Source: Haloplanus sp. (GTDB taxonomy: Archaea; Halobacteriota; Halobacteria; Halobacteriales; Haloferacaceae). Taken from it: DNA of 44,760 bases. Below the pieces are notes generated by a model. The model saw nothing but the letters and a program-made list of their open reading frames with translations. It had not been told where the DNA came from and did no database searches. Location of the stretch: the NCBI RefSeq assembly GCF_028275055.1, contig NZ_JAQCNJ010000045.1:1-44760 (forward strand), read 5' to 3'. Below, one piece after another: positions 8,180 to 33,083 of this stretch. Position 1 is the first letter of the stretch; each line of letters opens with the position of its first letter. Position numbers and translations under genes: made by a program.

Positions 8180-8240
8180 GCGGCGTCGCCACGGACGGTG
8201 CGTCCCGTTTCGGCCGCTCCGGTCGGTCCGTCGGCCCGGT

Positions 8241-9233: not shown

Positions 9234-9252
9234 TCTCCATCGACTACACAGG

Positions 9253-9279
9253 CATAAACGTTCCCGAGGAAATTTTATC
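9253..9279. promoter_or_regulatory. 27-bp palindromic operator/promoter element, copy 2
   Basis: This copy is identical to 7226-7252 at 24 of 27 positions, with core GTTCC-CGA-GGAA. The TTTTATC at its right end lies about 27 nt before ATG 9304, so it defines the promoter of the small leader ORF and the genes after it. The same spacing to a start codon at both sites argues that it is a true promoter-operator. Confidence 0.7.
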
Positions 9280-9303
9280 AGGATACAGTCACACCCTGCG
9301 GGT

Positions 9304-9423
9304 ATGCAGACCGACGAGCCGACCGCGTCGCGTCGCCGGGGCGACGGCCCACCCGGTGATTCCGCGGGTACGGGCACCGAATCGACACACAAGCGACCGG
9401 CTCCCGACCGGGCGGCCAGATGA
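9304..9423 (+). CDS. 39-aa leader ORF coupled to the next gene
   Basis: The ATG at 9304 is exactly where the TATA at 9273-9279 would start a leaderless mRNA. The reading frame runs 39 codons and its TGA overlaps the ATG at 9420 (ATGA). The peptide is Arg/Gly/Pro/Thr-rich (MQTDEPTASRRRGDGPPGDS at the start) with no recognisable domain. Its likely role is translational coupling or regulation of the following gene; whether the peptide itself does anything is unknown. Confidence 0.5.
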   Translation: MQTDEPTASRRRGDGPPGDSAGTGTESTHKRPAPDRAAR

Positions 9424-10412
9424 ACCGAGACCAGATCGACGCCCAGCAGGCCGCTCTCGACGAGTACCACGACGACCCGGGGGACCTGCCGGAGATGCGG
9501 GCGCGCTTCGAACACAACGGGAGCCCGCGCTACCTGCTCTACACGATCAAGCGGTTCGGCTACGACCACGACCACGGCTTCCATCTCGATGTCCAACTCG
9601 TCTCCGACGCACTGGAGGACGGCATCGAGACCGTCGAGGCACAACTGCAGGAAGGGCACGCCGATCTGATCGATATCGACTACATTTCCATCGTCCGGGA
9701 ACGTGCCGGCGGGGCGAATATCGTCGCCTTTCACCCGTACGGGCGGACGGTCGGGGGGTTGGTCGCGCCGGAGGACACCGACATCTCGGGACTGGAGGAT
9801 CTGTCGGGCAAGCGAATCGGGGTGACCCGCCGCCTCGACAAAAACTGGATTCTGACACGGGCGGCCTGCCGGGAGTACCACGGCTTCGATCCCGACGAGA
9901 CGGCGACACCCGTCGAGGCCGGCTCGAAGGTCGAACTCACGCGGCTGATCCGCGACGGCGAGGTCGACGCCGGCTTCCAGTTCTGGCAGATCATCCCGGA
10001 GATCACCGAGACCGGTCCCTACGAGAACGTTCTCCCCGTTTCGGAGCTGGTTCAACGACTCTCGGAGACGGACAACAAACTCCCCATCGCCGCGTTTCTC
10101 ACCAGCGAGTCCTACCTCAACGAACAACGCGGGACGGTGCGGGGGTTCGCGGACGCCTACCGCGACGCGGTCGACCGCCTCGCCGAGGACGACGACCTCT
10201 GGGCGGAGATCAGCGAGCGGTTGATGACCTACGACGACCCCGACGTGATGCGTGCGGTGCGTGATGGCTGGCGAGACATGGTCGTTCGCGACTGGGACGA
10301 GGAGAGCGTCGACGGGATGTATCGGTTGTTCGACCACCTGAAATCGGTCGCCGGCGCGGACGCGCTCGGTGTTGAAGAGATTCCCGACGGCACCTTCGAA
10401 ATCGACCCATGA
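9420..10412 (+). CDS. Soluble substrate-binding-protein-like paralog B (330 aa)
   Basis: This is the tandem paralog of the 8241 gene, also 330 aa with no signal peptide. Identical residues include the N-terminal HIDAQQ/QIDAQQ block, the RFEHNGSPRYLLYTIKRFGY segment, and VGGLVAPEDTDISGLEDLSG through EYHGFDPDETAT. Other parts, such as residues 55-100 and the C-terminal lobe, have diverged, which suggests a changed ligand. The start overlaps the 39-aa leader stop, and its own stop overlaps the next start (ATGA at 10409), so three reading frames are translated as a chain from the 9253 promoter. Confidence 0.75.
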   Translation: MNRDQIDAQQAALDEYHDDPGDLPEMRARFEHNGSPRYLLYTIKRFGYDHDHGFHLDVQLVSDALEDGIETVEAQLQEGHADLIDIDYISIVRERAGGANIVAFHPYGRTVGGLVAPEDTDISGLEDLSGKRIGVTRRLDKNWILTRAACREYHGFDPDETATPVEAGSKVELTRLIRDGEVDAGFQFWQIIPEITETGPYENVLPVSELVQRLSETDNKLPIAAFLTSESYLNEQRGTVRGFADAYRDAVDRLAEDDDLWAEISERLMTYDDPDVMRAVRDGWRDMVVRDWDEESVDGMYRLFDHLKSVAGADALGVEEIPDGTFEIDP

Positions 10413-11383
10413 CGGAGACAGAGACAGTTACCTTCCAGTTGAACTGGGAACCGAACGGCTTCCAAGCACCGTACTTTCTCGCGCGTCGCGAGGGCTTCTA
10501 CGACGAGGCGGGCCTCGACGTTGAGTTCGTCGAGGGCCACGGCTCCCCTTTCGCCGCCGAACAGACGGCGAAAGGGCGGAGCGACCTCGGCTTGGCCGGG
10601 GGAAGCGCCGTGCTTTCGGTTCGGAGTCAGGGGCTCAATCCATTGGCCGTCGCCGCGGTCAGCCAGAAGACGCCCGCGACAATTTATAGCCTCCAAGACG
10701 TGTTTGGCGAGCCGTTCACCGACCCCGAACAGCTTCGGGGACGGACGGTCGCGCCCTCCGCAACAAAGACCCGTATCCTCGCGTTGCAGTTGCTGGAGGA
10801 CCGTGGTATCCGCGACGAGGTGGAGGTCCACGATGTCCAGAAACACACCCACCACCGGGTCGAACATCAACTGCTCGACGGTGACGTCGACGCCGCCGTC
10901 GGCGTCGTCACCAACGGCAAGGAACTCGAACGCGAGTACGACCGGCTGGCCGACGAACTCCTCATCGGGAACTACCTTGACGTCTACGGGATGACGGTCG
11001 TCACGAATCCCGAGTTCGCCGAGTCGAACCCGGAGACCATCCGCTCGTTCCTGCGTGCGACCGCACGCGGATGGGAGGCGGCGACGAACGACCCCGAGCG
11101 TGCGGTCGAGACACTCATCGACCGCAACGCTCAGTTGGAACACAACCGCGCGGTCGAGCGGATGAAGTTTCTCGCCTCCGCCGAGGACCTCCAGTTCACC
11201 GAATTCGTCCGCGGGGCTGGTTGGGGCCACTTCGATGCCGAGCGCTGGGAGAATCTGGGCGAGATGCTCGCCGAGACGGACCTGCTAGAGTCGCCGGTCG
11301 ACCCTGCCGAGGCGTGGACCAACGAGTACGTCGACGACTCGGACCCGGTCATCGCGAACTACGCCGAGCGGATCGGCCGTTAG
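10409..11383 (+). CDS. Soluble NMT1/THI5-like protein (324 aa)
   Basis: NMT1-family features: the opening FQLNWEPNGFQAPYFLARRE, GFYDEAGLDVEFVEGHGSPF, a VAAVSQKTPATIY strand, and a C-terminal WTNEYV. The three blocks NW-x-P-N/S-G-x-x-AP, GWG and WTNEY are shared with the lipoprotein binding protein at 22975-24102 and, except WTNEY, with the HTH-fused sensor at 19363, so the three likely recognise related ligands. No export signal is present. No THI5-type cysteine cluster (CCCFC) is visible, so pyrimidine synthase activity is not supported. It overlaps the previous gene by 4 nt and is last in the operon. Confidence 0.78.
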   Translation: MTETETVTFQLNWEPNGFQAPYFLARREGFYDEAGLDVEFVEGHGSPFAAEQTAKGRSDLGLAGGSAVLSVRSQGLNPLAVAAVSQKTPATIYSLQDVFGEPFTDPEQLRGRTVAPSATKTRILALQLLEDRGIRDEVEVHDVQKHTHHRVEHQLLDGDVDAAVGVVTNGKELEREYDRLADELLIGNYLDVYGMTVVTNPEFAESNPETIRSFLRATARGWEAATNDPERAVETLIDRNAQLEHNRAVERMKFLASAEDLQFTEFVRGAGWGHFDAERWENLGEMLAETDLLESPVDPAEAWTNEYVDDSDPVIANYAERIGR

Positions 11384-12110: not shown

Positions 12111-14243
12111 ATGTCATCCGACTCAAGCACCGAATCGGACGGCCCCGTAAAAACGATCTGCCCGTACTGCGGTGTAGGCTGTGGTATCAAAATCGCACAG
12201 GACGACGAGGGCGAGGTCACCTTCCGGCCGTGGGGTGACGCCCCGGTCAACGACGGAAGCATCTGTATCAAGGGTGGTGCGGCGACGCAGTCGGTCAACC
12301 ACGAGGACCGTCTGACCGATCCGCTGATCCGTGACGACGACGGTGACCTCCGCGAGGCGTCCTGGGACGAAGCCTACGACGTGATCGTCGAGAACATGGA
12401 GCGCATCCGCGAGAACCACTCCGCTCAGGGGATGGGGTTCTACGGGTGTTCGAAGGCGATGAACGAGGAGAACTACCTCATCCAGAAACTGGCCCGACGC
12501 TACGGCACCAACAGCGTCGACACCTGCACCCGGATGTGCCACTCCTCGACGGTGTACGCCCTCAAAAACAGCCTCGGCGAGGGTGCGATGACAAACAGTA
12601 TGGCCGATCTCGAGGAGGCGGCGGACGTGTTCTGGATTCAAGGGGCCAACCCCGGCGAACAACACCCAATCGCCAACAGCCAGTACTTCCGGCAGGCGGT
12701 ACTGGAGGGGGCGACCGTCATCCAGATCGACCCCCACGCCAACAAGACGACGCGGTCGTTCGAAATCGACGAGACCGACCGCCATATGCACCTCCAACCC
12801 GAGCCTGGGACCGACATCCCTCTTCTCAACGTCGTTCTCAAAACGGTTCTCGAGAACGACTGGATCGACGAGGAGTTTATCGCCGAGCGCACGGAGGGGT
12901 TCGAGGATCTGAAAGACACCCTCGACGGCTTCGACACGGAAGCGGCGGCCGAGGAGTGTGGCGTTCCACTCGAAGATATCGAACGCGCCGCAGAAAAGTA
13001 CGCCATGGCGAACAACGCGGCCATCTTCACCGGGATGGGGATGAGCCAGCACACCTGTGGCGTCGACAACGTCCAAAACGAGATCAACCTCGCCTTGATC
13101 ACGGGCAACCTCGGCCGACCGGGGACGGGTGTCAACCCGTTGCGCGGCCAGAACAACGTCCAAGGAGCGTCGGACGTCGGTACGATGCCGAACGTGCTTC
13201 CGGGCTATCGTGACGTCTCCGACCCCGAGGTTCGAGCGGATGTCGAGGCGGTGTGGGACTTCGAGATTCCGTCCGAACCCGGCCTGACGAACGTCGAGGT
13301 GTCCCACGAGATCGGCGACACCGTCCACGGGCTCTACATCATGGGGGAGAACCCCGTGATGAGCGAACCCGACACCAATCAGGTCGAGAAGCGCCTCGAC
13401 GAACTCGACTTCATGGTGGTCCAAGACATCTACAAGACCGAGACCGCCGAGTACGCCGACGTGATTCTCCCCGCGACGTCGTGGGCCGAACGCGACGGGA
13501 CGGTCGTCAACACCGACCGCCGGACCCAACGGATGCGCGGCGTCGACAAGGTCCACCCGAACACCAAAGACGACCTCGAAATCCTGTGTGACGTGGGCAA
13601 CCGACTGTTTGGCGACGGTTCTTTCGACTTCGACGGGCCCGAGGAGGTCTTCGAGGAACTCCGGCAGGTCGCACCCATCTTCCACGGCATGACCTACGAC
13701 CGTCTCGGCGAGGAGGGCATCCACTGGCCCTGTTATGAACCCGGCGATCAGGGTGATGACTACCTTTACGCCGACGGCTTTACGACCGAGAGTGGCCTCG
13801 GCCAGATCGAGGGTGTCAGCCACCAGCCGCCGAAGGAGACTCCCGACGAGGAGTATCCGCTCATCCTCACGACGGGCCGCATCATCGAACACTACAACAC
13901 GGGAACGATGAGTCGACGCTCCGAGACGCTCAACCGCGTCGAACCGGAGAACTTCGTCGACGTGCATCCGAACGACGCCGAGCGCTACGGCATTGAGGAC
14001 GGCGACTACGTAACGCTCAAATCCCGGCGCGGCGAGATCGAGGTCGAAGCGCGGGTCACGGCGGACACGAAGGAGGGCACCGTGTGGACGACACCCCACT
14101 TTGCCGACTCCGCGGGCAACCGCCTCACCAACGACGTGCTCGACGAACGGGCGAAGATCCCGGAGTACAAGGCCGCCGCCGCGGAGATTGAGGTCACGGT
14201 CGAGTCCGACGCCGACACCGCGGACACCCCGGCCGACGACTGA
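12111..14243 (+). CDS. Formate dehydrogenase catalytic subunit (Mo-bis-MGD, [4Fe-4S])
   Basis: The 710-aa product is the catalytic FdhA/FdhF-type subunit that oxidises formate to CO2. An N-terminal [4Fe-4S] binding set is visible: CPYCGVGC (Cys17, 20, 24) and Cys52 in SICIKG. The molybdenum-site segment DTCTRMCHSSTVYALKNSLG gives Cys143 as the likely metal ligand followed by His144. Later blocks include LALITGNLGRPGTGVNPLRG, QGASDVGTMPN, the MGENPVMSEPD MGD site and the C-terminal TTGRIIEHYNTGTMSRRSE dinucleotide domain. It lacks a Tat signal and the extra N-terminal 2Fe-2S/ferredoxin domains of NAD-linked alpha subunits, and no beta or diaphorase gene adjoins, so its acceptor is unknown (ferredoxin or a distant partner). 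It suits the C1 gene set in the window. Confidence 0.9.
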   Translation: MSSDSSTESDGPVKTICPYCGVGCGIKIAQDDEGEVTFRPWGDAPVNDGSICIKGGAATQSVNHEDRLTDPLIRDDDGDLREASWDEAYDVIVENMERIRENHSAQGMGFYGCSKAMNEENYLIQKLARRYGTNSVDTCTRMCHSSTVYALKNSLGEGAMTNSMADLEEAADVFWIQGANPGEQHPIANSQYFRQAVLEGATVIQIDPHANKTTRSFEIDETDRHMHLQPEPGTDIPLLNVVLKTVLENDWIDEEFIAERTEGFEDLKDTLDGFDTEAAAEECGVPLEDIERAAEKYAMANNAAIFTGMGMSQHTCGVDNVQNEINLALITGNLGRPGTGVNPLRGQNNVQGASDVGTMPNVLPGYRDVSDPEVRADVEAVWDFEIPSEPGLTNVEVSHEIGDTVHGLYIMGENPVMSEPDTNQVEKRLDELDFMVVQDIYKTETAEYADVILPATSWAERDGTVVNTDRRTQRMRGVDKVHPNTKDDLEILCDVGNRLFGDGSFDFDGPEEVFEELRQVAPIFHGMTYDRLGEEGIHWPCYEPGDQGDDYLYADGFTTESGLGQIEGVSHQPPKETPDEEYPLILTTGRIIEHYNTGTMSRRSETLNRVEPENFVDVHPNDAERYGIEDGDYVTLKSRRGEIEVEARVTADTKEGTVWTTPHFADSAGNRLTNDVLDERAKIPEYKAAAAEIEVTVESDADTADTPADD

Positions 14244-14246: not shown

Positions 14247-15017
14247 CTAGCGGTCGTCCAAGTCCTCGATCAACCGGACGCCGCAGTCGGCACACGTCGC
14301 CATCAACACGCGTTCGGACTCGGTACAACAGGTCTCGACGGTTTCGGTTTCCTCGTTGTCGAGTGCACCGTCACAGCGCGGGCAGTAGGTCAGGTATTTT
14401 CGGAGGTCGCGAAGCGTCGCCACACGCGAGTCCGGGTCAAGCGACGCCCACGCCGCGCCGCCATCCGTTTCGAGCACCGCCGCGGCCGCGGCGTCGGCGA
14501 GCAACGCCGATTCCGAGAGCCACCGTCTGAGACCGCCGTCGACGACGTACGCCACGTCGCCGGGGACACTTGACGTCTCGGGGACGCCGAGGAGTCGCGC
14601 CACGTCATCCTCCGTGACGCCCGCCTCACGCATCCGCTCGATCCGGTTGTCCCACGCGGTCTCGAACGAGTCGACGAGTCGGCCGCCCTCCGGGGTCGCC
14701 CGAACGGCCGTTCCCTCGACCGGTTCCAACGTCTTCCGGAGGTCGACCTCCTTGCCGAACAGTTCGAGAAGCCACGGCGGAAAGTAGCGCACGGTGAGCA
14801 TCGGCGTCCCCGGGACGAGATACCCACGGAAGTAGATGGCTCCGACCGCGCCCACGAGAACGACGACGCCCCCGACCGGGCCGAGACCGACCGAGACGAC
14901 CGCCGCGGCGGCGACGGCGAGACACAGGTTCACGACCGTACACGGCATACACCGATTCTCACCGGTGTACTCCGGCCGCCGCAGGCGATCCCCGATGCCG
15001 CTGAGTTGGGTACGCAT
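14247..15017 (-). CDS. Membrane protein with C-terminal zinc-ribbon-like cysteines
   Basis: The start at 15017 is supported by an upstream AAGGAG and by a T-rich TATA-like element ~26 nt away. The 256-aa product has an early CMPC pair, two adjoining hydrophobic segments (~27-62: NLCLAVAAAAVVSVGLG and VVVLVGAVGAIYF), a long cytoplasmic helical part, and a C-terminal cysteine array CPRC...CC...CADC (~215-250) that could bind zinc. I do not recognise a named family. It follows the cupredoxin-like gene by 49 bp on the same strand and could be transcribed with it, but nothing ties it to the quinoprotein. Confidence 0.65.
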   Translation of the reverse strand: MRTQLSGIGDRLRRPEYTGENRCMPCTVVNLCLAVAAAAVVSVGLGPVGGVVVLVGAVGAIYFRGYLVPGTPMLTVRYFPPWLLELFGKEVDLRKTLEPVEGTAVRATPEGGRLVDSFETAWDNRIERMREAGVTEDDVARLLGVPETSSVPGDVAYVVDGGLRRWLSESALLADAAAAAVLETDGGAAWASLDPDSRVATLRDLRKYLTYCPRCDGALDNEETETVETCCTESERVLMATCADCGVRLIEDLDDR

Positions 15018-15066
15018 CGCTCCTTGATACGGATCGGCCCTCGAAAAAAGCTGTGTGCCGTGTCGA

Positions 15067-15762
15067 CTACTCGTCGCTGCTGCCACGACGGAGCGCGCCG
15101 TACGCACCCGCACCGATCGCGGTCAGAGCCGCACCGATGCCGAAGCCGGGTCCGTTGCCGGACGTTTCCTCGCCGCCGTCGCCGCCGTCGCCGCCGTCAC
15201 CGCCGTCGCCGCCGTCGCCGCCGTCGCCACCGCTCATTGGCGTGTCGGTCGCGTCGCCGTTGTCCATATCGCCGCCGTCGCCACCGTCGCCGCTGTCCAT
15301 GTCGCCGCCGGAGACGTCGAACTGACCCCCCTCGGCCGGGTAGTCTTCAAACGACGCCTCGATTTCGCCCTCGAACACGTAGGAGTGTTCCTCACAGCCC
15401 CACGTGGTGAGGTTGCTCGTCGCCTCGAAACTGACACTCTGGGAGTTCCCTTCATCGAAGACGTAGTTGCTCCGGGTGAGGGTTCCGTCCTCTGTCCGGA
15501 GCGTCATGTTGTGTCGTCCCGGCAGCCCCTGGAGTTCCGGTACGTAACTCACCGTGTAATCGATGGTGTACTGGCTGCCAGCCTCGACCGCCAAGGTCGG
15601 GTTGGTCGTGCCTTCGATGCCGGAGGGCGCTTGACCGACGAACCCTTGATCGGTCAATTCGAGTTCGAACGTCTGTGCTTGGGCGCTCGCGGATCCGGTC
15701 GTTGCGGCCAGACCGGTCGTCGCCGCGGCGGCACCGATCAGGAACTTTCTTCGTGTCGCCAT
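15067..15762 (-). CDS. Tat-exported cupredoxin-like protein with PGF-CTERM anchor
   Basis: MATRRKFLIGAAAATTGLAA is a twin-arginine signal. The mature domain (~30-150) is beta-rich, with His84 (GRHNM), Cys123 and His126 (WGCEEH) spaced like the His, Cys-x2-His copper ligands of plastocyanin-type proteins; the usual axial Met is not evident. A Gly-Gly-Asp repeat linker (~160-200) leads to GNGPGFGIGAALTAIGAGAY and a basic tail, the PGF-CTERM sorting signal cut by archaeosortase A. The protein should sit on the cell surface joined to lipid. It lies downstream of the PQQ dehydrogenase but has its own TATA (~15791-15797). Electron transfer from the quinoprotein is an inference. Confidence 0.75.
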   Translation of the reverse strand: MATRRKFLIGAAAATTGLAATTGSASAQAQTFELELTDQGFVGQAPSGIEGTTNPTLAVEAGSQYTIDYTVSYVPELQGLPGRHNMTLRTEDGTLTRSNYVFDEGNSQSVSFEATSNLTTWGCEEHSYVFEGEIEASFEDYPAEGGQFDVSGGDMDSGDGGDGGDMDNGDATDTPMSGGDGGDGGDGGDGGDGGDGGEETSGNGPGFGIGAALTAIGAGAYGALRRGSSDE

Positions 15763-15880: not shown

Positions 15881-17605
15881 CTACTCGCTGAGGCCGAAGA
15901 CGGCGACGGTGGAGCCACGACGGCCGCCGTGGAGCCAACCGGAGCCACCGACCTGGACCGCGACGTACTGCTTGCCCTCGCCGGGGTCGTACCAACTGGA
16001 CAACGAGGAACAGATCGGCGCGCCGAGCTGGAACTGCCAGAGGCGGTCGCCGTTCTCGCCGTCGTAGGCGACGATGTTCCCGTTCTGTGTGCCGGTGAAC
16101 ATCAGGCCGGTCGAGGTCGTGATGGAGCCGCCCCAGAGGTAATTGCTCGTCGTCTCTTGGGAGATCCAGTCACGCCAGACACGCTCGCCGGTGGACGGAT
16201 CGACCGCGACGATGGCGCTGAGGTTGCCGTTCCAGCCCTCCGGCGCGTCGACGTCGGGCCAGTCGTTGAGCCCGCCGCCCCAGTAGGTCTGGCCGGCCTC
16301 GTACTGCGCCTCTTCCCAGAAGATTTCGTGTGGCGCGTTGTTCTGGTTCATGTACATCAGGCCGGTTTCCTGGCTGTACGACGGCGGCTGCCAGTCGTTG
16401 CCACCGTGTGCGCCCGGCACGAAGGCGACCCGACGGTCCTCGTCCGTGTGCGGGACCATCTTCCACATGTTGATGTGCTGGGTCGTCTCCTCGGACCGCT
16501 CGAGAAGCTGACCGTTCTCGGCGTCCATGGTGTACTCCCAGGCCGTCTTGCCCGGGCTGAGAACGACGTCGCGCGTCTCGCCGTCCATCTCCATGTCGTT
16601 GACACGGATCTTGGTCGCCGAGGAGTCGTAGTCCCACACGTCGTGGGGGCTCTCGCCGTAGTGCCAGTTGATGGAGCCGTCGTTGGCGTCGAGGGTCAGC
16701 GTGCCGATGGTGAATCGGTTCGGACCGGGACGGACCGTGCCGTCGAAGTCCGGACCGGGGTTACCGACCGGCGCGTGGATCTTCCCGCTGTCGGGATCGA
16801 GCGTCGGCGTCATCCAGACGGTGCCGGCGCCGTGTTCTTGCGAGTCACCGGCCCACTCCTCTGCGGGCGTGGTGTTCGTCTTCCACATCTCGTCACCGCT
16901 CTCGGGGTCGAGCGCGGCGACGAAGCCACTGACACCGTACTCGCCACCGGCGGAGCCGGTGATGACCTGCCCGTCGTAGACGATGGGCGCCCAGGTCGCG
17001 GAGTACCCGATCTCGTGGTCGCCGGTCGAGGCGTACCACTCCTCTTCGCCGGTGTAGCGGTCGAGCGCCACGATACCGGAGTCGAGGGTGGTCATGTACA
17101 CCTTGTCACCGTGGACGGCGGCACCACGGTTGTTCGCGTCACAACAGAGAAGGAGTCCCTGCGGGTTCGCGTACGTGTAACTCCACAGGGTCTCACCGGT
17201 CCGGGCGTTGATCGCCTTCATGTGGTTCGGACCGTTCGTCTGGTACATGACCGGCGGATCGCCGGACACAACGATCGGCACACCCTCCATGCTGGAGGAC
17301 ACACCGCTCTGGACCAGATACTCCAGTTCGAGACCGTCGACGTTGTCCGGCGTGATGACGTCGGCGGACGTGTATCGCTGCTGCTGATAGCCGCCACCGT
17401 ACATCAGCCAGTTCGTCGGATCCTCCTTTGCGGAGGCGGTCAGATCCTCCTGGGTAACGTCACGCTCGGGGATCTGATCGATGTCGAACTGCTGGGTGAT
17501 GGATTCGTCGGGCAGGTTCGTCAGCGTATACCCGTCCTCAACCTCCACCATCTCGATGTTCTGTGCCGCTTTTACCGCTTCGTCGCGTTCGTGAATACTA
17601 GCCAT
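15881..17605 (-). CDS. PQQ-dependent (lanthanide-type) alcohol dehydrogenase, no signal peptide
   Basis: This 574-aa quinoprotein is an eight-bladed propeller with repeated tryptophan-docking motifs (GETLWSY, GEEEWYAS, GERVWRDW, GDRLWQF). Expected active-site parts are present: the vicinal Cys154-Cys155 that stacks on PQQ (LLLCCDANNRG), Glu222 (GGEYGVSG), Asn282 (GNPGPDFDG), catalytic Asp325, and Asp327 in HDVWDYD. Asp-Tyr-Asp at this place marks lanthanide-using XoxF/PedH-type enzymes; calcium MxaF has Ala at the second position. Family members oxidise methanol or larger alcohols outside the cell. The start is firm: GAGGTGAT, an excellent Shine-Dalgarno, overlaps the stop of the upstream gene 6 bp away. 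Yet there is no signal peptide, although the upstream gene has one. The substrate is unknown. Confidence 0.88.
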   Translation of the reverse strand: MASIHERDEAVKAAQNIEMVEVEDGYTLTNLPDESITQQFDIDQIPERDVTQEDLTASAKEDPTNWLMYGGGYQQQRYTSADVITPDNVDGLELEYLVQSGVSSSMEGVPIVVSGDPPVMYQTNGPNHMKAINARTGETLWSYTYANPQGLLLCCDANNRGAAVHGDKVYMTTLDSGIVALDRYTGEEEWYASTGDHEIGYSATWAPIVYDGQVITGSAGGEYGVSGFVAALDPESGDEMWKTNTTPAEEWAGDSQEHGAGTVWMTPTLDPDSGKIHAPVGNPGPDFDGTVRPGPNRFTIGTLTLDANDGSINWHYGESPHDVWDYDSSATKIRVNDMEMDGETRDVVLSPGKTAWEYTMDAENGQLLERSEETTQHINMWKMVPHTDEDRRVAFVPGAHGGNDWQPPSYSQETGLMYMNQNNAPHEIFWEEAQYEAGQTYWGGGLNDWPDVDAPEGWNGNLSAIVAVDPSTGERVWRDWISQETTSNYLWGGSITTSTGLMFTGTQNGNIVAYDGENGDRLWQFQLGAPICSSLSSWYDPGEGKQYVAVQVGGSGWLHGGRRGSTVAVFGLSE

Positions 17606-17611
17606 ACGTTA

Positions 17612-18529
17612 TCACCTCAGAGCAGATGGAGCGCGCATTTCGTCCGTGATGCGCATCACGTCGTTCGTCAGGTCTTCCTGTCCAACGATCATCATCGCCG
17701 CACCCGCAGAGAGGGCGGCGGTGAGCTGTGCGTCGGAGAGTTCCTGAGCGCCGGCGAGGTCCTCGGCAGCGCTGGCCAACAGGTGCAGGCCGGCGTACAT
17801 CTGCTTGAGGTCGCCGTAGTTGTTGTCGAGAATCGTCTCGGTCAGAAGCACCTCGTTCTGCCAGAGGTACGTGTCGAGGTAGTCCGTCCACAGGAGCACA
17901 CCGGCGGCCGCTCGTTGTTGGAGCGGGGCGATGTTTCCTGGGTCGAACCCTTCGACGCCGGCCGGGATCTCCGTGGTGGGAACCCACATGGCCAGCCGTT
18001 CTTTGTTGTTGACGACGTTGACGACCGTCGAGGTCAGTTCCGCCTCGCTGTACCCGAGTTCGCTGAGCGCGCCGGCGAGCACGCCCGTGTTGATGAACTC
18101 ACGCGCCGTAGCCCCGATATGCTCGGGGGTGAACTCCGGTAGGTGTTCCTCGGCGCTCTCGAAGAAGCCAACCTCGATGAGATGCTCGTGGATAGCCAAA
18201 CCGGGCTCGGCGAGTTGCTGGTACTCTGTGCTGTCCTCGGCAGGGACACCCATCGCCCGAAGTTCGGGCAGGCGCTCGATCTGTCCCTCGAGGGCGGCGA
18301 GTTCGTTCCCGAGGAGACCGGCGCTGAGTTCGCCGGCAAGGTCCTCACGAATGGCCTCGCCCATCGCGGCGAGTTCCCCCGCCGCTTCGCCTTCTACTTC
18401 GCCCCTGAGATCGCTCAGGGTGAACTCACTACCTGCTGCCACTGCGCCGGTCAACCCGACGACCTTGAGGAACTGCCGTCGATCCTCTTGATCGATCTCG
18501 GGCATTCCGTCATTTACATATTGCGACAT
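17612..18529 (-). CDS. Tat-signal protein, putative export/assembly partner of the quinoprotein
   Basis: The start at 18529 (MSQYVNDG) is chosen over ATGs at 18553 and 18544, given an AAATATAG TATA near 18562-18570. Near the N-terminus EDRRQFLKVVGLTGAVAAG is a twin-arginine motif with a hydrophobic core. The rest (305 aa in all) is almost wholly helical and acidic, with no cofactor motif that I can see. Its stop overlaps the ribosome-binding site of the PQQ dehydrogenase, so the two are made together, probably in a fixed ratio. By analogy with small Tat-bearing subunits that carry a signal-less large subunit across the membrane (NiFe hydrogenase, gluconate dehydrogenase), it may piggyback the folded quinoprotein. 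The family is not recognised. Confidence 0.7.
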   Translation of the reverse strand: MSQYVNDGMPEIDQEDRRQFLKVVGLTGAVAAGSEFTLSDLRGEVEGEAAGELAAMGEAIREDLAGELSAGLLGNELAALEGQIERLPELRAMGVPAEDSTEYQQLAEPGLAIHEHLIEVGFFESAEEHLPEFTPEHIGATAREFINTGVLAGALSELGYSEAELTSTVVNVVNNKERLAMWVPTTEIPAGVEGFDPGNIAPLQQRAAAGVLLWTDYLDTYLWQNEVLLTETILDNNYGDLKQMYAGLHLLASAAEDLAGAQELSDAQLTAALSAGAAMMIVGQEDLTNDVMRITDEMRAPSALR

Positions 18530-18680: not shown

Positions 18681-19223
18681 TTACCTGACGGTTATCGTTC
18701 CGACCATCCCGGACGCGGCGTGTGGAACACAGACGTACGTGTACTCACCGGTCGTCTCGAAGGTGTGTTGGTAGGTCGTTCCGGCTTCGTTGAGCGAAAC
18801 GTGGTTGATGTCGTCACCGGAGATGTCGTAGCTTGCGAACGGCTCCGCACCGTCCGGGATCGACACATCGCTCGCCGCGTCGGGGTGGCCCGCGACGTTG
18901 TGACCGCCGGATTCGAAAACGAACTCGACGGTGTCTCCCTGTGAGACCGCGGTCGTTGCCGGTTCGAACTGGAGGCTGCCGCCCGGCCCCACGGCGATCG
19001 ACGCGTCCGCCTCGCTTGTTTCCATCGCCGTCGGCTCCTCGGTCGCCGTCTCCGTTGCGGTCGGTTCGTCGGTTGCCGTCTCCGTCGGATCGTCGCCGCC
19101 GTCGCCGCCGTCGCCACCACCGCCGCCACCGGAACAGCCCGCAAGGCCGGTGACCGCGACGCCGCCGAGTGCCGCTGCGAATTTCCGCCGGGACAGGACT
19201 TCTTTCGGCTCTTTTGAAACCAT
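18681..19223 (-). CDS. Halocyanin-type blue copper lipoprotein
   Basis: This 180-aa precursor has SRRKFAAALGGVAVTGLAGC, a Tat signal ending in a lipobox with Cys30 as the lipid-modified residue. A Gly/Asp then Thr/Glu/Pro linker follows. The cupredoxin domain has the first copper His in ESGGHNVAGHP and Cys, His and Met in YVCVPHAASGMVGTITV. Halocyanins are membrane-attached one-electron carriers. Lying directly upstream of the PQQ dehydrogenase unit on the same strand, it is the obvious electron acceptor. A TATA-like CTTTAACC (~19249-19256) fits a start at 19223 (MVSKEPKE); an ATG at 19229 is also possible. Confidence 0.9.
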   Translation of the reverse strand: MVSKEPKEVLSRRKFAAALGGVAVTGLAGCSGGGGGGDGGDGGDDPTETATDEPTATETATEEPTAMETSEADASIAVGPGGSLQFEPATTAVSQGDTVEFVFESGGHNVAGHPDAASDVSIPDGAEPFASYDISGDDINHVSLNEAGTTYQHTFETTGEYTYVCVPHAASGMVGTITVR

Positions 19224-19362: not shown

Positions 19363-20643
19363 GTGCAGGTGAGAGAGTTCCCGGTTCTCGGCGACGAGGA
19401 CGAACGAACCGTCGAGGCGTTCGCCATGGGATTCGACCGCGAGGCAGCACGCGTACTCGCCTACCTGGTCGGGCGCGAGGGCTCCGACCGCTTCTCGGGT
19501 GAGGTCGCCTCCCGTCTCGCCGTCCGCGTCGGCGTCGACTCGGGCCGGGGACGGGTTTCCGACGTGTTGTCGACGCTCACCGACCTCGGTCTCGTCGAGG
19601 AGACGACCGTCGACAGCGAGGCCCCCGGTCGGCCGCCCAAGGGCTGGCGTGCCAGCGCCGACTGCGACCAAACGCTCGCTCGGGTCAGACGTCTCCACGC
19701 AGAGGCCTTGCTCGAACAGGCGGCAACCGTCGCCGCCACGCTCGGCGACAACATCGACATCGATGTCGACGTCGACCCCACCGAGTCGACCGAACACACC
19801 CACCCGATCGAGGTGGGGCTCAACTGGAACCCCAACGGCCTCCACGCACCCTTGTTTGCGTCGACGTACGCCGACCACGGGGTCGACGTGACCTTCACCG
19901 GCTGTCGGGGCTCCCGTGCGGCCCTGTCGGCCGTGGCTGACGGGGACGTGGACATCGGTCTCACCGGCGCGGCCACGCTCCTCCGGGGACACGCCGCCGG
20001 TCACGAGCTGGTGCCGCTGGCGCTGTACTACCAGCGTGCGATGGTCGTGCTGTACACCACACGGTCGGCCTTCGACGGGCCGCTCCGTAGCATTGAGGAC
20101 GTCCGTGGCCGTCGGGTCATCATGCCCGACGGCTCGGAAACCGGCACGCTCGGTCGACTCTTTCTCTCACAGGCCGGCGTTGTCGACGATGTGACCGTCG
20201 TCCCGGCGAAAGGCGAGGAACGGACGGCGCTGCTCAACGGCGGCGCTGACGTGGCGACCGGCGTGTTCACCGACCCGCTGGAACTCGAAGCGGAGGGCCA
20301 CGACGTGGACTCGGTGCTGGTGGCCGACCAGTTCCCGGTTCCCGGCCCCGCGCTGGTCGTTCGCCGAGAAACGCTCCGTGACCGTCCGGCCGCGCTCCGA
20401 GGGTTTCTGCAGGGAACGATGGGCGGGTGGACCGACGCGACGGTTGACCCCGAGGCCGCCGTCAAGGCACTCGACGGGCGCGCCGACGACTCGCCGGCCG
20501 CGGAGCAGTACAAACTGGAGCAGGCGCTTGACCGCTTCACCGGTGGCGACGCCGTCGAGAAACACGGCTGGGGATGGCACTCCCAGGAAACGTGGCAACG
20601 GTTCCGGGTCGCACTCGGTCAGGCGGGCGTGTTGGAACCATGA
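19363..20643 (+). CDS. Winged-helix regulator fused to NMT1-like ligand-binding domain
   Basis: Two parts are visible in 426 aa. Residues ~20-100 form a winged helix (FDREAARVLAYLVGREGSDR, then RGRVSDVLSTLTDLGLVEET). After a short acidic linker, residues ~143-426 are a binding-protein domain starting VGLNWNPNGLHAPLFASTYA, with later GVFTDPLELEAEGHDV and EKHGWGWHSQETW. There is no signal peptide or membrane span, so ligand is sensed inside the cell. The GTG start is supported by the TATA at 19333. ATGA overlap with the ABC ATPase makes it the first gene of the transporter operon. Its sensor resembles the lipoprotein binding protein at 22975-24102, so it most likely controls uptake by sensing the imported compound. 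The ligand is unknown. Confidence 0.82.
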   Translation: MQVREFPVLGDEDERTVEAFAMGFDREAARVLAYLVGREGSDRFSGEVASRLAVRVGVDSGRGRVSDVLSTLTDLGLVEETTVDSEAPGRPPKGWRASADCDQTLARVRRLHAEALLEQAATVAATLGDNIDIDVDVDPTESTEHTHPIEVGLNWNPNGLHAPLFASTYADHGVDVTFTGCRGSRAALSAVADGDVDIGLTGAATLLRGHAAGHELVPLALYYQRAMVVLYTTRSAFDGPLRSIEDVRGRRVIMPDGSETGTLGRLFLSQAGVVDDVTVVPAKGEERTALLNGGADVATGVFTDPLELEAEGHDVDSVLVADQFPVPGPALVVRRETLRDRPAALRGFLQGTMGGWTDATVDPEAAVKALDGRADDSPAAEQYKLEQALDRFTGGDAVEKHGWGWHSQETWQRFRVALGQAGVLEP

Positions 20644-21419
20644 CCATGATCAGCGTCGAGAACCTGTCGGTCACCTACGGCGACCTGGTCGCTCTCGACG
20701 ACGTCTCGCTCGACATCGACGACGGCGAGTTCGTCACGGTCGTCGGCCCGTCCGGTTGTGGCAAAACCACGCTGTTGCGGGCCATCGGCGGTCTCGAATC
20801 GCCGACGACCGGGCGTGTCAGTGTCGACGGCGACACCCCGGAGGCCGCACAGTCGGCCGCCCGCCTCGGCTTCGTGTTTCAGGATCACACCCTTCTACCG
20901 TGGAAGACGGCGCTCGAGAACATCACGTTTCTCCGGAAGATGGCGGGGAAAGACCCCGATCCGGAGGGCGCACGCGACCTGCTGGCGACGACCGGACTCG
21001 ACGGCTTCGAGGACGCCCGCCCGTCGGAGCTCTCCGGCGGGATGAAACAACGGGTCGCCATCGCCCGTGCCATCCACCTCGGTGCCGACGTGTTGCTCAT
21101 GGACGAACCGTTCGGCGAACTCGACGAGATCACCCGCGACGAGATGGGCGTCGAGATTCTGCGTCTGTGGCGTGAGAACCGCAAGACCGTGGTGTTCGTC
21201 ACCCACAGCGTGCCCGAGGCGGTCTTTCTCGCCGACCGTTGCCTCGTCGTGTCGGGCACGACCCCGACCGCCGGCGCGACCACCGACGACGGGGTGGGCC
21301 GGATCGTCGGCGAGTTCGATATCGACCTGCCCCGTCCTCGGGACGAATCGGTGTTTGGCTCCGAAGCCTTCGGAACACAGGTGGCACGGGTGCGTCAAGC
21401 GCTCCACGGTGACGAATGA
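20640..21419 (+). CDS. ABC transporter ATPase (nitrate/taurine/NMT1 class)
   Basis: This 259-aa ATPase has Walker [10 protein letters not shown] (~36-44), Q-loop [10 protein letters not shown], signature [15 protein letters not shown], Walker [13 protein letters not shown] and switch VTHS. The LLPW segment after the Q-loop and the GELD D-loop are typical of SsuB/TauB/ThiZ-type ATPases, which power uptake with NMT1-like binding proteins. The start ATG overlaps the previous stop (ATGA), and its own stop overlaps the permease start in the same way. It is cytoplasmic, attached to the permeases. Confidence 0.92.
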
Positions 21420-22171
21420 GCGTCGCCAGCCGGGTTCCCTTTCCCGATGTCGTTCTCCCCGTGTCGGGACTCGTTGCCGCCGTTGCCTGCTGGTGGGGAC
21501 TGACCGCCGTTCTCGCGCTCCCGCCGTACGTTCTTCCCTCACCCGTCGCGGTGGGGACTCGCCTCGCCGAGAACCCCGGGCTGTACCTCTCCAACGCCGT
21601 CGAGACCCTGCGGAAGATCACCATCGGCGGGGCCACCGGTATCGCGACCGGTTTCGTTCTCGCCCTCGTCATCAGCGAGGTGTCGCTGCTCAGGCGGGCG
21701 ATCTACCCGTACCTCGTCGCCGCTCGCGTTCTCCCGAAGATAGCAATCGCCCCCATCCTCCTCATCTATCTCGGCGTCGGCTTCGGCACGGCGGTCCTGT
21801 TTGTCGCGTTGATCGTCTTTTTCCCCGTCGTTGTCGGCACCGCGGCGGGGTTGAACCGAGCGCCCGACTCGCATCTCGATCTGCTCCGGTCGGTCGACGC
21901 CGACCCCATCCGGACCTTTCTTTCGGTCCGCCTCCCCCACGCCCTCCCGGACGTGTTCGCGGGCGTGAAACAGTCGGTCACGCTCGCCGTCGTCGGCGCC
22001 GTCGTCGCCGAGTGGATCCTCTCGAACGACGGCCTCGGCTCGCTCATCCTCGTGGCCTCCGAGAACGTTCAGGTGGACGTGATGCTGGCGTCGCTCGCCG
22101 TTCTCCTCCCGATGGGGCTTCTGTTGTACGGCGGTGTCTCGTTGTGTTATCGCGCCGTCGCGTGGCGGTAG
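21416..22171 (+). CDS. ABC transporter permease 1
   Basis: This 251-aa membrane protein of the BPD-transporter inner-membrane family (SsuC/TauC/ThiX type) has about six helices, an N-terminal [16 protein letters not shown] segment and the cytoplasmic EAA-like loop [28 protein letters not shown] that contacts the ATPase. It overlaps the ATPase gene by 4 nt. It probably pairs with the second permease encoded convergently at 22172-22975; the two stops are adjacent. Confidence 0.9.
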
Positions 22172-22975
22172 TCAGCCCCAGTCGAACCGCCGCTCGACCG
22201 CCGCGGGGACGAGATAGAAGGTGAGACCGAGACCGACAAGCGTCGCGAGCGCCGCGAAGGTGGTGCTCGTATCGAGGTACTCCGCGCTGTCGAACAGTTG
22301 GTAACCGATCCCGGACTGGAGAGTGAGAAACTCCGCGACGACGGTGCCGACGACGGCGAGCGCCGCCGCGAGTTTCACGCCAGCGAACACGCTCGGTGCG
22401 GCCGCGGGGATCCGGATCCTGAGAAAGGTTCGGATCGGCGGTGCGTCGACCGACCGGGCCAGATCGGTGTACTCCCGGGGGACCGCCCGGAGACCGTCGA
22501 CAGACGCCACGGCGACGGGAAACACCGTCATCGTCGACACGAGAAGCGCCCGCGAGAGAAGGCCGTCGCCGATCCAGAGAAAGACAAGCGGTGCGATGGC
22601 GATCAGTGGCGCGATGCGGAGCGCGACCAGATAGGGGTGGAACACGGCGCTTGCGGTCCGTGACCCGACCATCGCGAACGCGAGCCCGAGGCCGACGACG
22701 ACCCCGCCGCCGAGTCCGAGTCCGGCCGTTAGCGCCGTGGTCGCCGCGGCCGAGAACAACGTCGCCCGGCCCGCGATACCCGCCGCCACCACGTCGGCGG
22801 GCGATGGCAGGATCACCGACGGAACGCCGCTCACCGCCACGTACCACTGCCAGCAGGCGAGGATAACGCCGAGAACGAGAACGGGCGGCCAGACCCGCGT
22901 CAGGAGCCGCCGGAGACGGCCGCCGCTCACCGCCGGTGTCTCGACGCCCGGAAGCTGCTCATCGGAGGTCGCCAT
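22172..22975 (-). CDS. ABC transporter permease 2
   Basis: This 267-aa permease is of the same family as permease 1. [19 protein letters not shown] follows the first helix, and the coupling loop [20 protein letters not shown] matches its partner nearly residue for residue. The start ATG shares its A with the stop of the binding-protein gene (TGATG). Two distinct permeases and only one ATPase gene suggest a heterodimeric channel with a homodimeric ATPase, although two alternative transporters sharing one ATPase are also possible. Confidence 0.9.
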
Positions 22976-24102
22976 CAGACTGTGTCGGTGTACGACCCGA
23001 TGTATTCGTACCCCGTGTCCAGATACTCGTTGGTCCAGACCGAGGCCGGGTCGACCTCGCCGTCGAGGGCGGCGGTGTCGGCGAGCGCGTCGTGGACCAC
23101 CTGCCACGGTTCGTTCTCGCTCCATCCCCAGCCGTGTTCGGCCACCACGTCGCCGGTCATGAACTCCGTGGCCATGGTCTCCCACTTCTGTCGTTGCTGG
23201 CCCCGCGACTCCTCGAGAACACCGTTGGCGTCGATCAGCGCGTCGGTCGCATCGCCCGGGTTCGACTGCGCCCACGCGGCCCCGCGAGCGGTCGCCCGGA
23301 GAAACGCCCGGACCGCCTCGGCGTTCCCGGCCGCCCAGTCACGCTCGGCCGCCACCACGTGACCGTAGGAGGGGACGGTGTCGCCGACGGCGATGCTGTC
23401 GACCGTGTACCCCTGTGCTTCCGCGCTGATCGCGTCGCCGAAGACGCCGCCGGCGGCGTCGATTTCCCCCGAGAGCAGTTGCTGGACTGTGTCGTAGCCG
23501 GTATCGACCATCTCCACCTCGCCGCGGATCCCCGCGTCCTCCAACAGCAGGGTCGTGAGCACCCTGACCATCCCCGGTCCGGTGCCGACGGTCTTGCCCG
23601 CGAGTTGGTCCACGCTCGTCAGTTCGCCGCCGAACGTCTCTCGGGTCGAGAACACCACCGCCGGGCTCTTTTGCATCACGACGCCCACGGACTGTGGCGA
23701 GAGGCCGCGGCTGTTGATGTTGACCACCTGATCGCTGCTACTGATCGCAAACTCGACGTTGCTCAGTCCCGCCTGCTTTGCCGAAAACGTCGACCCCTCA
23801 CCGGTCTCGATCGCGGCCAGCGACAAGCCCTCCTCGTCGTAGAACCCGTTTGCCTTCGCGGCGAAGTAGGGGGCGTGGAGACCGCTCGGCTTCCAGTTGA
23901 GGAGCAGCGAGTAGTCGCCCGGGATGGGCGTTCCCGTCGTCGTTCCGGTCGGCTCTCCCGTCCCGGCCTCGGTGTCGGTGTCGGTGTCGGTGCCGCCGGC
24001 ATCGGCACCGGTCCCGCCGCCCCCGAGACAGCCGGCAAGCCCCGCCGCCCCGGTCGCACCGGCCGCCACGAGGAACCGTCGTCTCGTCGCTGTCCGTCTC
24101 AT
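22975..24102 (-). CDS. Tat-exported lipoprotein substrate-binding protein (NMT1 family)
   Basis: MRRTATRRRFLVAAGATGAA followed by GLAGC gives a Tat signal with a lipobox; a Gly/Thr/Asp linker (with a TDTDTDTE run) tethers the domain. The binding domain begins LLLNWKPSGLHAPYFAAKAN and contains STRETFGGEL, DTGYDTVQQL, EHGWGWSENEPW and WTNEYLD. ThiY/SsuA-type proteins deliver sulfonates, pyrimidines or similar compounds to the permeases. The start is taken at 24102 because the Tat motif follows at once. A 20-bp perfect-arm palindrome lies 20 nt upstream. The ligand is undetermined. Confidence 0.9.
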   Translation of the reverse strand: MRRTATRRRFLVAAGATGAAGLAGCLGGGGTGADAGGTDTDTDTEAGTGEPTGTTTGTPIPGDYSLLLNWKPSGLHAPYFAAKANGFYDEEGLSLAAIETGEGSTFSAKQAGLSNVEFAISSSDQVVNINSRGLSPQSVGVVMQKSPAVVFSTRETFGGELTSVDQLAGKTVGTGPGMVRVLTTLLLEDAGIRGEVEMVDTGYDTVQQLLSGEIDAAGGVFGDAISAEAQGYTVDSIAVGDTVPSYGHVVAAERDWAAGNAEAVRAFLRATARGAAWAQSNPGDATDALIDANGVLEESRGQQRQKWETMATEFMTGDVVAEHGWGWSENEPWQVVHDALADTAALDGEVDPASVWTNEYLDTGYEYIGSYTDTV

Positions 24103-24121
24103 GAGCAGACGTGGGGACACG

Positions 24122-24794: not shown

Positions 24795-24891
24795 CGACCG
24801 GCACGTCGAACCCGTCTGCGTGTATAATAATTCAACGTACACCGATACCCGCGTACAAACCTACATAATAGTCCACTCCTTTCGCCGTTCT

Positions 24892-26193
24892 ATGGTTCGA
24901 ATGCTGATGGTTGTCGGTATCGTGTTGTTACTGTCGCTTGCCGTCGCTTCTCCGGCGGTGTCCGCCGTTGGGGACGACCTCGGTGTGAGCGGTCCGGTTG
25001 ATCTCGTCGGCGCTCAAGAGGGTGGCGGTGAAGAAGGCGAAGCGGGTGAAGAAGGCGAAGCGGGTGAAGAAGGCGAAGCGGGTGAAGAAGGCGAAGCGGG
25101 TGAAGAAGACGAAGAGGAGGAAGGCGGTATCGAGGGCGCGATCGAGGGATTCATCGAGGCACAGGGGACGATCGGTGCCGTCTTCGTGTTGCTCGGCGGC
25201 ATCGCGTTACTGACCGTCTCGACGGAGAAACTCATCAGCTACCTCGCCCGCGCGTCGATCAACATGAAGCTGTCGTTGTTTGCACTCGCCATCGTGTTCA
25301 CCGGCTTCGAGTTCGACGACACGATTCTCGCACTCGTGCTCTCGGGCGGTGGACTGGAGGAGGCGGCCCTCGGGACGGCGCTCGGGACCGGACTGGCGAT
25401 CATCGGCATCACGCTCGCCGTGGCCGCCATCGTCAAGCCGTTCCCGGTCGATCTCCCGACCGACTACGTTGTCATCTTCGCGCTCGCGCCGTTGATTCTC
25501 GTTCCGTTCGTGTTGCTCGGAACGCTCACGTTCATCCACGGAATCATTCTGACCACCTTCTTCGTGCTCGCCTTCGGCTACTTTGTCGTCCGGGAGCGCC
25601 AACGGGAGGTGCCGGTGTTCCGTGACACGGAACTCGGGAAGGAACTGCAACCGGACGGCGGTATGGCCAGACCGGAGTCGATGGAGGACATCCCGGAGGA
25701 CCGCATCCTCGGCGATCTCGCCGACTCCGGGATCGTGTGGGTCGTCCTTTCTATCGTCGCACTCGTCGGCATCGTCTTCGCCGCCATGCTGCTTGAAGGT
25801 GGCTCCGAGGTCGTTATCGAGGGCTTTGGCATCTCAGGGACGGTCTTTGGCGCGACCTTTCTCACCCTGTTGCTGACCGGTGAGGACCTCCTGCTCACCA
25901 TCGAACCGGTCCGCCGTGGCTTCCCCGAGATCGGCGTGGGTAACGTTATCGGAAGCGTGCTGTTCTCGGTCACGGGCAACATCGGCGTCATCATGTTTCT
26001 CAGCGAGGTGAGCATCTCGCCGTCCGTGCTGACATTCCACCTCCCGGCGATGATTCTCGTCACCACGCTGGCAGCCTACTTTTTCTGGGAGGGCGAGGTG
26101 AAGCGCTGGCACGGCTACCTCCTCGGGGGTTGTTACGTCGCCTACTGGGTCATCGCGCTCGTCATGTTCAGCGGCGTGCCGATCGGGGAGTAA
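24892..26193 (+). CDS. CaCA-family sodium/calcium-type exchanger A
   Basis: The start at 24892 is supported by TATA CATAATA (24864-24870). The 433-aa protein begins with a signal-like hydrophobic segment ending SPAVSAVG. A long Glu/Gly-rich external stretch made of GEEGEA repeats follows, then ~10 membrane helices. The two alpha-repeat regions read VFTGFEFDDTILALVL and LLLTGEDLLLTIEPVRRGFP; the acidic residues in them are where CaCA exchangers bind cations, though the usual GNSxPE motif is altered. It exchanges Na+ or H+ for a divalent cation by family inference. It converges on a paralog 30 bp away. Confidence 0.82.
   Translation: MVRMLMVVGIVLLLSLAVASPAVSAVGDDLGVSGPVDLVGAQEGGGEEGEAGEEGEAGEEGEAGEEGEAGEEDEEEEGGIEGAIEGFIEAQGTIGAVFVLLGGIALLTVSTEKLISYLARASINMKLSLFALAIVFTGFEFDDTILALVLSGGGLEEAALGTALGTGLAIIGITLAVAAIVKPFPVDLPTDYVVIFALAPLILVPFVLLGTLTFIHGIILTTFFVLAFGYFVVRERQREVPVFRDTELGKELQPDGGMARPESMEDIPEDRILGDLADSGIVWVVLSIVALVGIVFAAMLLEGGSEVVIEGFGISGTVFGATFLTLLLTGEDLLLTIEPVRRGFPEIGVGNVIGSVLFSVTGNIGVIMFLSEVSISPSVLTFHLPAMILVTTLAAYFFWEGEVKRWHGYLLGGCYVAYWVIALVMFSGVPIGE
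25027..25116 (+). repeat. Tandem 18-bp repeats inside exchanger A
   Basis: GGTGAAGAAGGCGAAGCG is repeated four times perfectly (25027-25098), with a diverged fifth unit at 25099-25116. It encodes GEEGEA hexapeptides. The unit length is a multiple of three, so slippage would change loop length without breaking the frame. Confidence 0.9.
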
Positions 26194-27294: not shown

Positions 27295-27345
27295 GCCGTC
27301 TCCGGTGGGAAACCACCACCGCAACATAAAGTTCCCGTCCCCGGT

Positions 27346-30584: not shown

Positions 30585-30725
30585 GTACGGTCACGTCGGT
30601 AATCGGGGCTCAAAATCTCTGACCTGTCTCACGTGTGGGGGTTAATCTGTCGTTATCATCCGTTCGGTTATACGGACTGAAGACGACGAAAACATCCGGC
30701 TGTCGACAAACGCCGGCAGTTCGGT

Positions 30726-30746: not shown

Positions 30747-30747
30747 G

Positions 30748-31602: not shown

Positions 31603-31660
31603 ATCGGTGATCCGGAATTGTTGGTGGTTAGGTCGCGCGACCGTTATGACTGTCGGGGAG

Positions 31661-33028: not shown

Positions 33029-33083
33029 CGTATGTACACACGACGCTCCGTCCGCATAAGCGTAGACCTCAGCTATCTCGGAC

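Follow-up and report, generated by a model that had tools for sequence, protein, structure and literature searches.

A two-gene unit in Haloplanus sp., lying within a 44,760-nucleotide (nt) stretch of contig NZ_JAQCNJ010000045.1 (this whole stretch is called the window), encodes a pyrroloquinoline quinone (PQQ)-type dehydrogenase without an export signal and, directly before it, a helical partner protein with a twin-arginine translocation (Tat) signal. Gene linkage and the distribution of signals among relatives point to Tat hitchhiking on the partner as the best reading for the window pair, and a probable one. As far as the sequence tells, the pair is the gene arrangement of a Tat hitchhiker, with a catalytic subunit lacking a signal beside a partner bearing one. 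The two genes would make one enzyme: the helical partner would fold with the signal-less quinoprotein in the cytoplasm, and the Tat signal of the partner would then carry both proteins, folded, across the membrane. Outside, the quinoprotein is predicted from its residues to act on an alcohol or an aldehyde, using PQQ that has been scavenged and either lanthanide or calcium ions, and the electrons may go to blue copper proteins encoded on both sides of the pair. The genome from which the window comes is 79% complete.

The dehydrogenase was identified by its propeller domain (Pfam PF01011, 183.5 bits against a cut-off of 26.7), and its top solved relatives were the quinoprotein ethanol dehydrogenase 6zcv and the lanthanide XoxF 6dam. 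With 392.3 bits it stayed under the cut-off of 480.05 of the curated methanol/ethanol family TIGR03075 and is a divergent relative outside that subfamily; a model of "empty quinoproteins" also matched it, at 282 bits and far under its cut-off of 650. The preliminary description of this DNA had named Glu222, Asn282, Asp325, Asp327 and the Cys154-Cys155 pair as retained functional residues, and each of them was found aligned to the same residue in 6dam; at position 353, 6dam has Arg versus Lys in the window dehydrogenase. An extra Asp two residues after the catalytic Asp (Asp-x-Asp) is associated with lanthanides in the available part of PMC5487730. By alignment, this extra Asp of the lanthanide subgroup is present in the window dehydrogenase as Asp327. 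The comparison was extended to 125 non-redundant archaeal pairs, obtained from 143 by dropping 18 with an identical aligned core. C154, C155, R160, E222, N282, D325, D327 and K353 were invariant in all 83 pairs with a CCD motif, and Asp325 and Asp327 were kept in 124 of the 125, the remaining one showing a gap. The 42 pairs without the motif include 37 without Cys at column 154 and eight in which Asp replaces Glu222; the motif does not coincide exactly with the alignment columns, as five of the 42 have Cys154 and five have Cys155.

The start of the dehydrogenase had been described as fixed by a ribosome-binding site inside the previous gene, with no signal on the protein, and this was confirmed. 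Eight bases of the Shine-Dalgarno-like GAGGTGAT match AGGAGGTGATC, which we take to be the consensus complement, and the dehydrogenase frame is closed by TGA TAA upstream of the start, so that no N-terminal signal has been missed. A start-site scan found a Shine-Dalgarno-like match of at least 5 bases at the dehydrogenase start in 90 of the 125 pairs and none in 24. A conserved N-terminal signal on homologous quinoproteins, which would have spoken for a signal missed in the window, was looked for among the archaeal dehydrogenases: the N-terminal regions of all 125 lacked both a Tat pattern and a hydrophobic run of 15 uncharged residues. Five bacterial relatives start with a signal, as judged by eye.

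The previous gene, for its part, had been read as a Tat signal on an otherwise unrecognised helical protein, and this reading stands. Its N terminus reads MSQYVNDGMPEIDQEDRRQFLKVVGLTGAVAAG, and the Tat motif was unaltered in all 11 copies of the window-type pair in the genus. An AlphaFold2 model of the partner from 26 rows was confident and helical, with a predicted local distance difference test score (pLDDT) of 88.2 and a predicted template modelling score (pTM) of 0.89. A search for fold relatives of this model in the Protein Data Bank (PDB) gave nothing convincing (of 351 matches at E<=10, not one reached E<=0.001). When PDB sequences were searched with a profile built from 20 Tat-type partners, the best match was a nitrate-reductase precursor peptide, at an unconvincing E=0.14. 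Pfam and curated models placed the window partner in no known family and returned only weak Tat-signal models and chance-level matches. Gluconate 2-dehydrogenase subunit 3 and the sorbitol dehydrogenase small subunit are, we assume, hitchhiker small-subunit families; the window partner matched none of the known families of this kind in Pfam, and one of 20 relatives matched PF12318 at E=0.08. In a phylum sample of 392 genomes, partner matches occurred in eight, all within the order of the window, one of them covering just 33 positions at the signal end.

The linkage of the two genes is nearly complete. In 142 pooled haloarchaeal stretches, a dehydrogenase lies directly downstream on the same strand of 143 of 144 partner open reading frames (ORFs), and the sole exception is a broken remnant; the proposal that the partner regularly precedes a signal-less quinoprotein was thus upheld across haloarchaeal genomes. 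Seen from the other gene, four of 147 dehydrogenase ORFs have no adjoining partner, namely L082, an intact orphan, L134, where the gene is split and one half stands alone, L091, which lies at the end of a contig, and L162, which is broken. The pair is present in 11 of 12 genomes of the genus and absent from G005. Among 99 related genomes there are 19 partner places and 19 full-length dehydrogenases, with every partner beside a dehydrogenase in the fetched stretches; 55 of the 99 match the dehydrogenase somehow, and the matches beyond the 19 are short and weak and were left uncounted. A dehydrogenase accompanies the partner in all eight plasmid records and all 26 named-collection contigs that contain one. 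In 391 genomes of the class, 70 have a partner match and 69 a dehydrogenase, and all 69 have the partner too; the odd genome, G238, contains broken remnants only. In these class searches no more than six partner and three dehydrogenase candidates were scored for each genome, which makes the copy numbers minimum values, and the related-genome, plasmid, named-collection and class sets overlap.

The signals were located with a pattern of our own (RR, then an uncharged hydrophobic stretch), with the threshold set to 1.0 on partners and to 0.55 on both next genes and controls. The partner bears a Tat signal in 49 of the 125 pairs. Model TIGR01409 at E<=1 matched 19 of 20 Tat-type and none of 20 Tat-less partners, both sets chosen out of the 125 by this same pattern. 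In 32 Tat-less pairs the next gene downstream carries a Tat signal and starts -38 to 53 nt from the dehydrogenase stop; in 30 of the 32 it is a cupredoxin by distance (a same-strand cupredoxin domain no more than 700 nt away). Cupredoxins are normally exported proteins. In the remaining 44 pairs neither partner nor dehydrogenase has a Tat signal, and the one next-gene match among them (L105) is probably false by eye. A rule by which partner Tat goes with copper and no Tat with ferredoxin was rejected, as 31 Tat-less pairs have copper neighbours; reading the next gene of these led to a rule of three states, with Tat on the partner, on the next gene, or on neither. When the comparison was confined to the 63 pairs that have a copper protein no further than 2.6 kb away, a Tat gene within 60 nt past the dehydrogenase stop was found in 31 of 31 Tat-less versus two of 32 partner-Tat pairs; in a control, a Tat-bearing gene followed within 300 nt after 24 of 498 other acidic ORFs. 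A few assignments were made individually: the cupredoxin Tat of L190 and L194 was assigned after reading the N terminus; L146 has no cupredoxin match and was placed in the next-gene group for its Tat next gene, raising it from 31 to 32; in L148 the next gene has Tat and the cupredoxin domains lie further on; and L141, counted as partner-Tat by rule, has a weak signal, lies in a Tat-less subclade and has a next gene with Tat.

Two candidate electron acceptors flank the window pair (Table 1). The upstream one scored 58.4 bits with the halocyanin model, under its cut-off of 93.8, and a halocyanin-like neighbour is present in all 11 genus loci. The downstream protein has no Pfam match and is called cupredoxin-like from 34-36% matches to annotated plastocyanins beside distant pairs; it recurs with Tat in all 11 genus loci, 107-125 nt from the dehydrogenase. 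In Natrinema thermotolerans an annotated plastocyanin with Tat lies convergent to the pair (L080:10921-12885, minus strand), and by eye it is presumably fused to a glucose/sorbosone-dehydrogenase-like domain.

Table 1. Positions of the pair, its signals and the candidate electron acceptors in the window.
Feature	Position	Strand	Evidence
Cupredoxin-like protein with Tat signal and PGF-CTERM, downstream; candidate electron acceptor	15067..15762	minus	PGF_CTERM 27.0 vs 24.5 bits
PQQ-type (XoxF/ExaF-like) dehydrogenase, signal-less, 574 amino acids (aa)	15881..17605	minus	Pfam PQQ, solved relatives, metal-site residues
Shine-Dalgarno-like GAGGTGAT of the dehydrogenase	17611..17618	minus	Overlaps TGA stop of partner, 5 nt ahead of ATG
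Partner protein with N-terminal Tat signal, 305 aa; predicted to be all-helical, assigned to no known family	17612..18529	minus	
Tat signal region of partner, DRRQFLKVVGLTGAVAAGS	18428..18484	minus	TIGR01409 15.7 bits, just under cut-off 16.7
Halocyanin-like blue copper protein with own Tat signal, upstream; candidate electron acceptor	18681..19223	minus	Copper-bind 65.7 vs 21.2 bits

The 44 pairs of the third state were treated as a ferredoxin clade, defined by the CCD motif, the lack of Tat and no copper protein within 2.6 kb (for example L060-L067, L082-L084 and L098-L100). A ferredoxin gene lies within 7.5 kb in 39 of the 44 versus none of the 81 other pairs, and within 3.3 kb in 37 versus none; flanks are uneven in these counts, with 5 kb on both sides in 26 of 44 ferredoxin-clade and 40 of 81 other stretches. 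No ferredoxin was found in five pairs of the clade (L087, L104, L165, L175 and L204). The neighbour ferredoxins are presumably of the 2Fe-2S type, by their annotation, and genes near some of the loci are, we take it, aldehyde ferredoxin oxidoreductases. A CDC48-type AAA ATPase gene occurs in the stretch in 35 of the 44 versus none of the 81. No pair has both a copper and a ferredoxin neighbour (63 pairs have the former and 39 the latter), and partner Tat is absent from every pair with a ferredoxin neighbour. All 15 sampled rows of the clade fall into one starred clade, and all checked PQQ and metal residues are kept. It was considered that these pairs are cytoplasmic, ferredoxin-linked quinoprotein alcohol dehydrogenases working on imported PQQ, with export ancestral and internalisation derived; this may be so, and we hold it tentatively, with doubt somewhat outweighing belief. 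It is a bolder and less certain proposal than hitchhiking. Genome G003, of the same genus as the window, has a second pair of the Tat-less ferredoxin type (L067, G003:C7:767000-786000) beside its Tat-type pair.

The history of the signal was examined on a dehydrogenase tree of 53 of the 125 pairs (less than 87% identical) with five bacterial rows as root, made by a quick method, and on a partner tree of likewise 53 pairs. On the bacteria-rooted tree all 10 rows of the basal clade have Tat on the partner, and Haloplanus together with L120 (partner-Tat, support 84) is sister to a clade (support 98) that joins Tat-less copper and ferredoxin pairs. Three changes of partner Tat are needed on each tree, and one switch between copper and ferredoxin. 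By parsimony on the dehydrogenase tree, partner Tat looks ancestral and lost at least twice. This tree comes with warnings: the end branches of L154, L156, L157 and L159 are long, long branches also come together within the basal clade and among the bacteria, and the composition of three bacterial rows is unusual. Both loss lineages include pairs with a Tat-bearing next gene, and in one of them the ferredoxin pairs form a clade without such a gene. In the broader picture the partner would be the constant companion of the dehydrogenase and the signal the movable part; its apparent shifts from one subunit to another, and its apparent losses, roughly parallel the type of neighbouring electron acceptor. 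Since it is kept even where it is Tat-less, the partner is probably a structural or folding subunit that bears the signal, and more than an export tag.

Several results weigh against hitchhiking, either in the window or as a general scheme. The Tat score of the window partner is just sub-cut-off (15.7 versus 16.7 bits, TIGR01409), and the uncharged stretch of its signal is short, at 12 residues. A joined-chain AlphaFold2 model of partner and dehydrogenase, for which in-frame stop codons in 20 loci were read through as Gly, was poor (pLDDT 72.1, pTM 0.58) and gave no usable interface. The second dehydrogenase copy in L082 is intact, yet has no adjoining partner. The Tat-less pairs were sorted partly by a nearby cupredoxin, which makes the grouping partly circular. 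Moreover, in 17 of the 49 partner-Tat pairs, most of which branch deeply, no copper protein lies within 2.6 kb and no ferredoxin within 7.5 kb, so that a link between signal and acceptor is not seen in them. Only two to three independent changes of signal state lie behind the counts; an independence test with two independent pairs on starred branches was not significant, and P values mean little among related rows. Finally, 76 of 125 partners have no Tat. Hitchhiker export, as put forward in the preliminary description, therefore stands as the best explanation for the window pair and is not borne out as a general rule.

Based on the retention of the partner in all 44 pairs with Tat on neither partner nor dehydrogenase, which implies a role independent of export, a different function can be proposed: the partner would be a maturation chaperone working in the cytoplasm only, for example in cofactor or metal loading, with the Tat signal serving the partner alone and the quinoprotein staying inside. 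Ferredoxin as the usual neighbour of those 44 pairs fits this, as do the 17 partner-Tat pairs without a nearby copper protein. The neighbours of the window pair are Tat-signal copper-type proteins, however, which a cytoplasmic enzyme could not use, and Tat stands on the next gene in all 31 copper-neighbour pairs whose partner is Tat-less; for the window this reading is improbable. The next-gene pattern agrees with joint export in which a third subunit bears the signal, as in E. coli PaoABC, by which the Tat-less copper pairs would also be exported. Extended to the window, it becomes a three-part export complex with the Tat-bearing cupredoxin as main carrier and the Tat of the partner redundant. 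Ternary hitchhiking has a precedent (PMC4273604, in the part available), and the downstream gene bears Tat in each of the 32 Tat-less pairs that do not belong to the ferredoxin clade, as well as at all 11 genus loci. Yet in 33 of the 49 partner-Tat pairs no next gene with Tat follows within 300 nt, so that the partner would have to suffice there, and the genus cupredoxin-like protein has a PGF-CTERM tail of its own; this reading too is rather unlikely.

The cofactor raises a further alternative, that the protein is a quinoprotein-like propeller no longer using PQQ. PqqC was found over cut-off in none of the 391 class genomes, with one 19-bit match, in a search whose positive control (Sinorhizobium pSymB) scored 428 bits; PqqE was over cut-off in none of 20 genomes, the best match reaching 120 versus 381 bits. 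Both negatives also count against an active exported quinoprotein, and two scores point the same way as the missing PqqC: the sub-cut-off one with the curated family of PQQ alcohol dehydrogenases, and the match, far under its cut-off, to the model of "empty quinoproteins". Against a loss of PQQ stand the eight sites, including the vicinal Cys pair, that are invariant in 83 of 83 CCD-motif pairs. In addition, many Gram-negative bacteria take up PQQ without making it, according to the available part of PMC12124388. The loss of PQQ is thus regarded as unlikely, if less so than the two preceding alternatives. Because PqqC was not found, PQQ for the window dehydrogenase would have to be taken up, by analogy with such bacteria.

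Other genes of the neighbourhood were recorded. The window contains six NMT1/THI5-type binding-protein genes (7277-11380, 19363-20640 and 22978-24105) with an ABC ATPase and permeases at 20574-23128, a system with a possible role in cofactor or substrate uptake. Matches to three of the NMT1/THI5 genes were found near 10 of 10 fetched pairs of the genus. Over the other pair-bearing stretches they occurred in 27-30 of 43 from the ferredoxin clade, in 17 of 32 from the Tat-less next-gene group and in five of 38 further ones with Tat. A Rieske oxygenase, an MTHFR-like protein, two DAO+GCV_T proteins and a BCCT transporter are encoded at 29451-40417, and on the other side of the pair a molybdopterin oxidoreductase, which we take to be of the formate-dehydrogenase type, at 12111-14243. 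Together these look like genes for betaine demethylation and one-carbon (C1) oxidation, and the substrate of the dehydrogenase might be a C1 compound. In eight upstream stretches of the genus, MTHFR was found in seven, DAO+GCV_T in seven, BCCT in four and Rieske in three, and the molybdopterin gene was present in 10 of 10 near genus stretches. Two Na/Ca exchanger-family genes (24820-26190, plus strand; 26227-27327, minus strand) have a possible part in metal supply; similar genes occur in 8-9 of 43 stretches from the ferredoxin clade, in 12 of 32 from the Tat-less next-gene group and in 8-9 of 38 further ones with Tat. The gene at 14247-15113 (minus strand) matches no Pfam family over cut-off and lies beside the pair in 12 of 12 genus loci (H. 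ruber repeats L058); proteins of its type are also found in many ferredoxin-clade stretches.

The closest known enzymes are the bacterial lanthanide PQQ alcohol dehydrogenases XoxF and ExaF (PedH), which belong to the same propeller family and share the Cys-Cys, Glu, Asn and Asp-x-Asp residues; identity to the archaeal dehydrogenase is at most 36.7% among the bacterial matches listed (best 40 of 562 records). Unlike them, the archaeal enzyme has no N-terminal signal, is accompanied by a helical partner gene and comes from genomes in which PqqC was not found. The window neighbours are copper-type, whereas the bacterial loci examined have cytochrome c genes nearby. In Tat hitchhiking, the E. coli systems PaoABC and hydrogenase-2 (HybOC) offer parallels, with PaoA an Fe-S subunit. 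In both, as here, a signal-less catalytic subunit travels on a Tat-bearing one, and PaoABC travels as three, as far as the available part of PMC4273604 describes them. HybO is an Fe-S subunit according to the same text, whereas the carrier here would be a helical protein of no assigned family, and relatives may use a cupredoxin instead. The gamma subunit of the FAD (flavin adenine dinucleotide) glucose dehydrogenase of Burkholderia cepacia is likewise described, in the accessible part of PMC6719666, as a small helical Tat hitchhiker protein on which a signal-less dehydrogenase depends for its folding and secretion; its catalytic subunit is a flavoprotein, in contrast to the quinoprotein here. 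The partner showed no sequence, Pfam or solved-fold match to this gamma subunit.

In the open-access literature, among the matches listed and as far as their titles and the beginnings of their abstracts go, neither the pair nor a haloarchaeal XoxF-type dehydrogenase was described; subscription journals lie mostly outside this search. No description of the pair occurs in the available parts of PMC10266531, PMC5892119, PMC6657660 and PMC11996626. PQQ dehydrogenases are predominantly periplasmic enzymes of Gram-negative bacteria (PMC12124388, in its available part). In an archaeal branch of these quinoproteins, export appears to depend on a separate carrier protein that represents an undescribed family. 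As a class, PQQ dehydrogenases generally carry their own signal. The signal states found among the archaeal pairs form a natural series for testing the evolution of Tat hitchhiking. In conclusion, the use of lanthanides and scavenged PQQ by archaea, as well as a cytoplasmic quinoprotein working with ferredoxin, are made directly testable.

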